Both the position numbers and the translations under genes were made by a program. Shown here piece by piece: positions 6,043 through 9,397 of a stretch of 11,674 bases of DNA (the first letter of the stretch is position 1; each line of letters starts with the position of its first letter). The notes under the pieces were generated by a model. It had not been told where the DNA came from. It saw only the letters and a list, made by a program, of their open reading frames with translations, and made no database searches. This DNA is from Deltaproteobacteria bacterium (lineage in GTDB: Bacteria; Bdellovibrionota; O2-12-FULL-43-9; JACQJE01): positions 1 through 11,674 of the forward strand of contig JACQJE010000063.1 of assembly GCA_016205125.1 (NCBI GenBank). Reading direction: 5' to 3'.

Positions 6043-6081
6043 AGTTCTCATCTGGAAATGAAATGCGTCATGAGGCCATGA
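6043..6081 (+). repeat. Diverged partial copy of the palindromic element's end
   Basis: Starting 14 bp after the ftsK stop codon, this stretch aligns without gaps to the left end of the palindromic element at 6102-6140, in the same orientation and 59 bp away. Most positions match, including the shared AATGCGT block. It also contains a small hairpin, TCATG (6068-6072) with CATGA (6077-6081). It looks like a decayed solo end of the same repeat family. Confidence 0.6.
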
Positions 6082-6101
6082 GTGGAAATTGAATTTTTTA
6101 A

Positions 6102-6280
6102 AGTTGCCATCCGAAAATAGAATGCGTAACGAGGACAAGCGAAAAGTTGAGTGGCGAGGCAGAAGGGAAAAAATGCCCGCAGGCGTAGCAACGCTACGTC
6201 GAGGACCATTTTTTCCCTTCTAACGAAGACAATCAACTTTGTAGCTGTCCGCAGTAGCATTCTATTTTCGGATGGCAACT
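6102..6280. mobile_element. 179-bp palindromic intergenic element (MITE/REP-like)
   Basis: The two ends, 6102-6125 and 6257-6280, are perfect 24-bp inverted repeats beginning AGTTGCCATCCG. Further arms match across the same axis: AGAAGGGAAAAAATG (6161-6175) with its exact complement at 6207-6221, and AAAGTTGA (6143-6150) with 6233-6240, offset by one base. At the centre CGTAGC (6184-6189) pairs with GCTACG (6193-6198) around a 3-base loop. Outer ends, inner arms and apex share the midpoint 6191, so this is one extended palindrome rather than chance hairpins. It holds no convincing gene. Size, perfect termini and lack of coding suggest a non-autonomous transposable or REP-type palindromic element. 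As RNA it could also act as a bidirectional stop between convergent ftsK and lolA. No clear target-site duplication is seen next to the ends. Confidence 0.85.
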
Positions 6281-6947
6281 AGGGAAGAATGGGGTTAAAA
6301 TTGCGATCGAGAAAAGGATCGATCGGCTTCTTCTGATGCTGTTCCCAGAGACCCTGATTGAGGACCACTTCTTTGAAATGAATCGTCGTGCGCTGTCCCA
6401 TCGAATCGACCAAAAGAAGCTCCTTCAAATACTGTTTCTCTCTGTCAAACTCAATCTCAGCAACGATCAACTGCGGAATTTTCACTTTTGGAACGAGCTT
6501 CTTCCTCAGCCTGCTGCCAGGGAGCGCTTCGATCTTAAATTGGTCAGCAAGCCTGCCGCCTCCTCCCAAGAGAGTCAGTAAGAGCTTCATCTGAGGCTGT
6601 TGAAAATCGAGAGTTCCCGCAAATACCTGCTTTTCCTCAGGCTGATAGATCCAAAACTTGTCCTGAAGAGCAACCAGCTTGCTCTCTGATGGAGCAACGG
6701 TGTGCCAAAAAAACTTTCCGGGTCTGAGGTAGTAAATGGTACCCTCTGAAGCCCGCATGGAATGAGTCAGAGGATTGAAAATCTCTTGATGAAATCGGGC
6801 CTTCCAGTCGACAATATATTCATAATGCCACTCAATAGGGCTGCTGCTGGAATTCGATACAACCGCAAAGCCGGACGTATCGGTCGCACAGGCCGAACTC
6901 CCCGCTGCGAAAAGAAAAAAAAGAGCTCTACTCAGCCCTCTTTTCAC
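6279..6947 (-). CDS. lolA: LolA-family outer-membrane lipoprotein carrier
   Basis: A 222-residue periplasmic chaperone that accepts lipoproteins from the inner-membrane Lol transporter and carries them to the outer membrane. A Sec signal peptide covers about residues 1-21 (KRGLSRALFFLFAAG, then Ala-Cys-Ala). The mature part follows the LolA pattern: an FHQE helix, GTIYYLRPGKFFWH, FWIYQPEEKQVF, a leucine-rich LLLTLLGG segment, LRKKLVPK, and the late LLVDSMGQRTTIHFKEV strands. Identification rests on this pattern, as LolA sequences diverge strongly. The start is GTG, overlapping the phaR stop as GTGA, so translation is probably coupled; AAGGAG lies 12 bases upstream. The stop codon shares two bases with the palindromic element, and the usual final residues after the last proline seem short, so the natural C-terminus may have been replaced. 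The ftsK-lolA neighbourhood is common in Gammaproteobacteria, but there both genes usually run the same way. Confidence 0.82.
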   Translation of the reverse strand: MKRGLSRALFFLFAAGSSACATDTSGFAVVSNSSSSPIEWHYEYIVDWKARFHQEIFNPLTHSMRASEGTIYYLRPGKFFWHTVAPSESKLVALQDKFWIYQPEEKQVFAGTLDFQQPQMKLLLTLLGGGGRLADQFKIEALPGSRLRKKLVPKVKIPQLIVAEIEFDREKQYLKELLLVDSMGQRTTIHFKEVVLNQGLWEQHQKKPIDPFLDRNFNPILP

Positions 6948-9244: not shown

Positions 9245-9280
9245 GTTCTCATCCGGAAATGGATGTTCTATCCCGGATGA
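9245..9280. repeat. Diverged copy of the ftsK-lolA repeat end
   Basis: The first 17 bases match the partial copy at 6044-6060 at all but one position (GTTCTCATCYGGAAATG) and closely resemble the end of the 179-bp element. The stretch has its own 8-bp inverted repeat, TCATCCGG (9249-9256) with CCGGATGA (9273-9280), so it may be a shrunken palindromic derivative. Confidence 0.5.
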
Positions 9281-9397
9281 AAACCAACAAACTTTCTCAT
9301 CCTGATTCACGACTACCGCCAATAATCCTTATCCTTCTTTCTCGATTAAACTCTCCTCGTTTCTGAACTTTCTCTAACACTTATCGCGCTGCCTGAT

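Follow-up and report, generated by a model that had tools for sequence, protein, structure and literature searches.

The window, meaning the whole stretch of 11,674 nucleotides that was analyzed, contains an ftsK gene (PF01580 and PF09397; 3540..6029, plus strand), which is convergent with a lolA-like gene (PF03548; 6279..6947, minus strand). Between the two genes lies a palindromic element of 179 bp (6102..6280, with no strand assigned), which was delimited by symmetry analysis and by its fold and which was matched at 6137-6246 on the plus strand by the covariance model (CM) used throughout this work. One end of the element falls on the lolA stop codon, a TAG at 6279..6281 on the minus strand, and two of the three bases of this codon are part of the element's end. 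The element adjoins what is left of another, related element (AGTTCTCATCTGG...GTCATGAGGCC; 6043..6101, plus strand), and part of this half-remnant is common to contigs C14, C188 and C75 of the same genome. Directly upstream of lolA, the window holds a gene that encodes a domain of PHB/PHA accumulation regulators (PF07879; 6944-7477). At 9245-9284, a 40-bp collapsed pair of family ends (GTTCTCATCCGG...CCGGATGAAAAC), without an interior, sits between the genes for RNase E/G and an M23 peptidase; it resembles collapsed sites in Nitrospira (L357 and L359) and in genome G012 (L422).

The original prediction described a nested symmetry of 24-bp ends, 15-bp arms and a central hairpin around one center at 6191, and the sequence confirms this arrangement. 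The terminal inverted repeats (6102..6125, plus strand, the distal or 3' end when read with lolA; 6257..6280, minus strand, the lolA-proximal or 5' end) are 24 nt each and 100% complementary. The outer internal loop follows on the left side at 6126..6142 and on the right side at 6241..6256 (both plus strand), and by eye its two sides are like the own-genome family motifs GTCATGAGGCCGAGCGAAA and TTGCAGCCGGCCGCAATAGA, respectively. Between the terminal and inner arms we found a further pair absent from the original prediction, arm 2, formed by AAAGTTGA (6143..6150) and TCAACTTT (6233..6240) on the plus strand. The middle internal loop (6151..6160 and 6222..6232, plus strand), with the family consensus CAAGGCCGCAG on the left and GAGAACGCNG on the right, separates arm 2 from the 15-bp arm 3 (6161..6175 and 6207..6221, plus strand). 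The structure is closed by an apical hairpin (6182..6200, plus strand) with a conserved G.T and a CCGSA/GAGGA loop on its sides, in which GGCGTAGC (6182-6189) pairs with GCTACGTC (6193-6200) around the loop AAC (6190-6192); 6 bp of this hairpin are strictly perfect, or 8 if one G.T is counted.

When the 179 nt were folded as RNA, the plus strand gave -97.8 kcal/mol (mean of 200 dinucleotide shuffles, -43.6; z of -14.9) and the minus strand gave -92.8 kcal/mol (z of -11.8). None of the 200 shuffles folded as well on either strand, so a strong hairpin is present on both. No Rfam model matched the window at its gathering score, and at an E-value cut-off of 5 just three microRNA models and one snoRNA model appeared, all far under their thresholds. 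Likewise, none of the 15 element-bearing loci searched had an Rfam match at gathering score at an element.

It had been proposed that a single copy in the genome would make the palindrome a local structure. A 219-bp query returned 17 matches in the window's own genome, several of which were the two strands of one place, and the palindrome is thus not a single-copy structure. The own genome is a 1.36-Mb draft assembly that is 78% complete. The CM, which was built from 50 sequences including 9 from this genome, gave 50 matches in it at an E value of ≤0.1, 47 of them at ≤2.2e-6. The end motif had 34 matches, compared with 0 for the reversed control pattern, and a query from a second subfamily had 46 matches. 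The copies vary in their arms and ends, and in an intact copy a change at one end mostly goes with a change at the other: the end variants GTTGCC, GTTCCC, GTTTCC, GTTCTC, GTTCGC and GTGTTC each occur with their complement, and the one exception seen is GCGTTC/GAACAC on contig C167. The apical hairpin (GGCGTANC..GNTACGTC), the adjoining CCGSA/GAGGA and the middle loop stay constant, and the outer loop does so within groups of copies. Two half-elements in divergent orientation were also seen by eye on contig C168 (at ~527 and ~983 of locus L045), and both appear to run straight into ribosome-binding-site-like sequence and a gene start.

A pattern search of genome contigs for the core matched at least 112 stretches, compared with a chance expectation in the collection that we estimate at ~0.5 under equal base frequencies. 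The 80 titled stretches carry the labels Desulfobacterales, Geobacter, Myxococcales, Planctomycetota/Phycisphaerae, Spirochaetes, Nitrospira, Acidobacteria, Actinomycetota, Clostridiales, Aegiribacteria, Fermentibacteria, Eisenbacteria, Rokuibacteriota, Gammaproteobacteria and others. Because the core was the search pattern, its letters are invariant in these loci partly by construction; the pattern did not include the middle loop, the arms or the ends. Among 64 cores flanked by 180 bp on each side, ~50 show a clear outer inverted repeat that is roughly symmetrical and 12 score <9, and the end sequences of the outer repeat are of several kinds, ~45, 57 or 75 bp from the core. A regular expression for the core gave many false places in coding DNA, and CM matches were used instead for calling elements; 80 of the at least 112 core loci were scanned, and the 218 CM matches were reduced to 192 unique elements.

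All 13 other genomes surveyed, which were chosen for holding the core, contain CM copies, from 5 to at least 150 each with at most 150 candidates scored per genome. In the host phylum, CM matches were found in 49 of 114 sampled genomes, the own genome included, and the remaining 65 had no match at an E value of ≤1e-5; in this survey at most 33 candidates per genome were scored, under stricter filters. The palindrome in the window is one copy of a little-described mobile family that has a conserved folded core and occurs in many bacterial groups. Repeat families of such a kind are usually treated as local and lineage specific, and here one structural family is found in records that carry the labels of many phyla. 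The original prediction did not include this spread, the conservation of the internal loops or the location at a stop codon.

We then considered how the arms change. In a MAFFT alignment of 50 sequences, double changes occurred in 22 of 29 pairs, and 89.6% of pair cells were paired, compared with 63.8% after shuffling and 35 to 41% when partners were slid. The covariation score was 0.638 (0.167 shuffled; 0.105 to 0.192 slid), and one of the five measures, the number of further pair types, showed no excess (80 versus 78.5 shuffled). The relatedness of the sequences is kept by the slid control and not by the shuffles. Thus, arms and ends differ between copies, yet are largely complementary within each copy. 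Arm-to-arm copying could partly account for arms that change in step, but alone it would leave the conserved unpaired loops unexplained. As to the strand that folds, which could be the mRNA, the opposite RNA or single-stranded DNA, the evidence from mismatches is conflicting: on the strand opposite the gene, G.T exceeded A.C overall (423:206) and in three of four groups, and in the own genome the ratio was reversed (25:56).

Evidence for mobility came mainly from the Desulfobacterales genome G050, in which 24 aligned copies have 141 to 145 bp in common, exact ends and unrelated flanks. Flanking hexamers matched in 16 of the 22 copies with definable flanks (7 identical and 9 at five of six positions), whereas shuffling gave a mean of 2.1 and a maximum of 8 in 2,000. 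Among the lengths 3 to 9 tested, exact flush repeats were of length 6 only, and the target consensus was TAGCTA. By these matching hexamers, the family acts like a DNA transposon of the MITE type. One own-genome copy, on contig C193, has the flanking duplication TAGGTA at six of six positions, and any target duplication of the window copy would be masked by the second element, which adjoins it. Of 149 candidates, the 104 with an end score of ≥13 and a length of 100 to 200 bp were used for the direct-repeat and T-run tests; 19 of these mixed copies had a direct repeat of ≥3 bp, compared with 7.7 expected, and clear duplications occurred in one genome only.

Other genomes show further arrangements of the copies. 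The Phycisphaerae genome G046 holds 13 copies with unrelated flanks, one of them cut by a contig end, and these copies share a unit whose ends read TAGCCCGC..GCGGGCTA, also written TAGCCCGCATTTCTCAC..GTGAGAAATGCGGGCTA. Here, 28 paired ends were all 41 to 256 bp apart, 20 of them at 254 to 256 bp, none of the pairs being farther apart than 256 bp, and 31 further ends were unpaired. Genome G042 contains tandem head-to-tail arrays with a period of ~143 bp (L305 on contig C167, L299 and L306), in which the later units are without the left end repeat. The lone ends of genome G012 were traced to two copies cut by contig ends, the collapsed pair at L422 and four lone ends. The four lone ends (L416 to L419, on contigs C5, C19, C70 and C84) have an identical 17-mer, TATTGATAAACGCACAA, and no partner end was found near them.

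It was proposed that the element is possibly mobilized in trans. This is the natural reading, but no transposase gene with matching terminal repeats was found in the sequence searched, that is, by searches with PF01797, PF01609 and end patterns in incomplete drafts. No IS-sized pair of ends was seen by eye among the 34 end-motif matches of the own genome. The Y1 transposase domain (PF01797) had matches at 33 places in 10 of 14 element-bearing genomes and no match in the other 4, drafts which may be incomplete. A RAYT partner was rejected, as 0 elements occurred in the 20 Y1 loci examined out of the 33 places, and the CM gave no match at an E value of ≤0.1 in 56.6 kb of transposase loci. DDE_Tnp_1, with four matches in three genomes, was rejected because it is without the element's ends. 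One of the two own-genome Y1 matches, a RAYT-like gene, was likewise rejected, since it has unrelated ends of its own (GGGGTCAGTTTGCAC..). This gene (L268:889-1872, contig C206) encodes a RAYT-like Y1 transposase of 327 amino acids and lies between inverted repeats of 37 nt that are 86% complementary and contain GGGGTCAG; these ends fit the GGGGWSAS motif of TIR-associated transposases given in the available text of PMC3733652.

The position of the elements relative to stop codons was analyzed for 125 of the 192 elements, namely those that had 400 bp of sequence on each side and scored ≥9 at their ends. Genes were defined as open reading frames (ORFs) of ≥100 codons by simple ORF rules, with 51 of the 192 elements overlapping a called ORF, and the elements were read opposite to the model strand for assigning sense and the near edge. 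An ORF stop lay within 6 bp of the near (sense) edge in 55 of the 125 elements and of the far edge in 11 (binomial p of 4e-8, for copies that are not independent). In successive 13-bp windows outward, the counts were 55, 6, 3, 0, 4, 1, 1, 3, 0 and 0 on the sense side and 11, 4, 8, 7, 3, 5, 8, 2, 3 and 3 on the other side. The edge stops were TAG in 29 cases, TAA in 16 and TGA in 10. The sense/antisense counts were 16/0 of 21 elements in G042, 11/1 of 21 in the own genome, 3/0 of 6 in the Nitrospira genome G040, 22/6 of 57 in the mixed set, 3/4 of 19 in G050 and 0/0 of 1 in G046. G050 thus lacks the orientation bias at stop codons (Fisher p of 0.012 versus the rest), and targeting of stop codons is not shared by every family. 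Since G050 has clear duplications but no bias, this one genome would suggest retention of copies rather than targeting. The 101 elements with typed neighbors lie between co-directional genes in 58 cases, convergent genes in 24 and divergent genes in 19.

Truncation of genes by the element was rejected as the sole cause of this coincidence, because few sense ORFs read on into the element (10 of 125, versus 55 stopping at its edge) and because most of the upstream genes that were scanned reach their full length there. We scanned ten upstream genes of the 55, chosen for familiar-looking ends, and 8 of them had a curated NCBIfam match above cut-off that stopped no more than 6 positions from the profile end (phosphoglycerate dehydrogenase, AsnRS, EpmA, SucD, ParE, YifB, PyrG and AhcY; YifB runs off its locus at the other end). 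The remaining genes encode a sigma-54 regulator and an M23 peptidase, and for both the profile end was reached, or approached to within 6 positions, only in matches below the cut-off. The finding that many copies sit exactly on a stop codon suggests that they are retained for some role at gene ends.

The locus between pyrG and kdsA in Nitrospira was also investigated. A 1.2-kb pyrG-kdsA query had matches in 29 of 29 genomes examined from the N. defluvii genus; G052 and G057 were matched through element-like sequence only, which leaves the locus itself in 27 genomes. Both flanking markers were present at 26 loci (L358 is without the downstream marker, and L363 repeats L353). Fifteen of the 26 carry the commonest interior version, four of these with a second element behind it. 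A second version is present at 3 loci (truncated at one), a third at 4 and a fourth at 2, and the other 2 loci have collapsed to a palindrome of joined ends. Interiors of at least four kinds thus occur at this site within similar outer ends. The commonest version is 93 to 99% identical to the reference, which is above both coding flanks in 14 of 14 orthologues (pyrG, 79 to 95%; kdsA, 82 to 95%), and the remaining intergenic DNA, where short, is 54 to 100% identical. Other element copies in the same Nitrospira genomes are ~73 to 82% identical among the matches listed, so the element is held at this site, and simple renewal from the other listed copies does not account for it. The pair table for this locus covers 12 of 15 copies. 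Among these 12 orthologues, three base pairs changed on both sides: one from TA to GC in one copy, another being AT in 3 and GC in 9, and the third from AT to GC in a single copy, while a different copy has the intermediate AC. At three more pairs of the predicted fold, the variation is uncompensated.

The explanation that we consider probable is that the palindrome is a non-autonomous, MITE-like DNA transposon belonging to a cross-phylum family of single hairpins, many copies of which have been retained as hairpins at the 3' ends of genes. The whole element would fold as one long hairpin, in which the terminal repeat, arm 2 and arm 3 are variable but co-vary. Three internal loops would separate the arms, the inner and middle ones conserved throughout the family and the outer one within groups, and a conserved hairpin would cap the structure. 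A transposase supplied in trans may cut at the terminal repeats, and insertion at the TA of a stop codon would spare the gene because the first base or bases of the element complete the codon. Copies in the sense of the gene at stop codons may then be preferentially retained and held by selection, and many of them, the window copy at lolA included, could act as the 3'-end hairpin of the upstream gene. Such a function at gene 3' ends would most likely run through the stability of the message or the termination of translation, and not through intrinsic termination of transcription. REPs within 15 nt of a stop codon are reported to stall ribosomes (Liang 2015, cited in the available text of PMC12306157), and in this they offer a precedent for a role in translation.

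On a broader view, which we offer tentatively and would not yet back, the family would represent ancient mobile hairpins of many phyla that are read by structure, the enzyme reading the loops and the apical hairpin, and that have repeatedly been domesticated at stop codons under selection stronger than that on the neighboring coding DNA. If the enzyme reads the loops and not the arm sequence, the ends and arms would drift freely but in step. The family as found here opens to testing the questions of what reads the loops, how a mobile element reaches stop codons and whether it controls the ends of messages, and it would have consequences for 3'-UTR annotation and for the prediction of terminators across many environmental bacteria.

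A transposon with retained copies has to be weighed against readings in which the hairpin has another primary role. The original prediction had suggested a double-ended transcription stop, and a bidirectional intrinsic terminator would fit the position of the window copy between convergent ftsK and lolA and the strong hairpin on both strands. This reading is very improbable, as a T-rich run follows the element in just 7 of 104 copies on the sense strand and 4 on the other (97 and 100 copies, respectively, have none), no terminator is predicted on the element in the window, and only 24 of the 101 typed elements lie between convergent genes. It is rather unlikely that the element is mainly a host RNA element, a regulatory hairpin in 3' UTRs or between cistrons, whose loops bind a protein and whose dispersal is secondary. 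The sense-side position at stop codons, the conserved loops, the conservation above the coding flanks at pyrG-kdsA and the occurrence of one member between dapAB and dapL in two species of Geobacter (in the available text of PMC2700814) would all suit such an element, but many near-identical copies with exact ends and 6-bp target duplications would not, and the mismatch pattern fails to single out the mRNA strand.

The mode of movement may also differ from that of a MITE. We regard it as quite unlikely that the hairpin is recognized as folded single-stranded DNA, in the manner of attC sites or IS200/RAYT substrates. An enzyme that reads loops and extrahelical bases would leave the arm sequence free to drift, in keeping with a conserved structure on unconserved arms, and the fixed orientation at gene ends would resemble that of attC. 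The G.T excess on the gene-opposite strand in three of four groups points the same way, but the own-genome mismatches point the other. To our knowledge, a 6-bp target duplication, as seen in G050, is not expected of Y1 transposases or integron integrases. PF01797 was not found in 4 of the 14 element-bearing genomes (possibly incomplete drafts), no element lay at the 20 Y1 loci examined of 33, and the own-genome RAYT-like gene has unrelated ends. Stem-loop replacement like that of IS1272, in which the element would land on palindromes near gene ends, older members of the family included, and replace them, is unlikely. This reading has a precedent in IS1272 itself (available text of PMC5678879) and would account for the interior versions within similar outer ends at pyrG-kdsA, and for the composite of an element and a half-remnant in the window, C14, C188 and C75. 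However, gene conversion between copies would also swap interiors, and the G050 copies have a target duplication, which IS1272 does not leave according to the same text.

The family shares with MITEs (Correia, ERIC, Nezha and others) short length, the lack of an ORF, terminal inverted repeats and a dispersed, intergenic position, with a 6-bp duplication in one family here; the window element itself is short, has no coding capacity and has perfect 24-bp terminal inverted repeats. Known MITEs are each restricted to a narrow range of taxa and retain a single end sequence. In contrast, the core here is common across phyla, and the ends differ even within a genome while mostly matching within a copy. 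The original prediction of a MITE or a large REP-type element is supported for the MITE part, by many copies with unrelated flanks, shared ends and target duplications in one genome, and the family differs from REPs of the GTAG/CGTC type. As described in the available text of Di Nocera 2013 (PMC3733652), these REPs and the RAYT/TIRYT elements are palindromic, multi-copy, found in many phyla and preferentially at gene 3' ends, all of which the family shares with GTAG/CGTC REPs. That text gives REPs as 20 to 40 bp with an unpaired GTAG or CGTC tag, whereas the family here measures ~120 to 190 bp, its CGTC is paired within the apical stem, and none of the 20 Y1 loci has a RAYT gene flanked by the repeat. 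IS1272, in the available text of PMC5678879, is alike in its palindromic targets and in replacement at a site, but it encodes its own transposase and leaves no target duplication.

The closest earlier description is that of Aklujkar et al. 2009, whose available text (PMC2700814) reports 24 "predicted short RNA elements" in Geobacter metallireducens with the core GRCGTAGCGCTGCTACGCC (its Additional file 4). It places such elements also in G. sulfurreducens, G. uraniireducens and Desulfotalea, with one lying between dapAB and dapL in G. metallireducens and likewise in G. sulfurreducens. Families of G. bemidjiensis are mentioned in the available literature without sequences. The R=A form of the core occurs exactly in 20 locus records of our analysis, some of them overlapping; four of these are a single place on contig C14 of the own genome, and another is Geomobilimonas (L137). 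The Geobacter elements thus appear to be members of the family, the membership of all 24 resting on the printed core. They are treated there as an RNA family of Geobacter and Desulfotalea, and the available text has no mention of mobility, internal loops, co-varying ends, stop-codon position or spread over phyla. Among the matches listed from the open-licence literature, including that on Nitrospira, Parachlamydia, Geobacter and Desulfobacter, we found no description of the family as a whole. Integron attC sites are imperfect palindromes that are conserved in structure and follow a stop codon in a fixed orientation, and by this resemblance the family may be likened to them.
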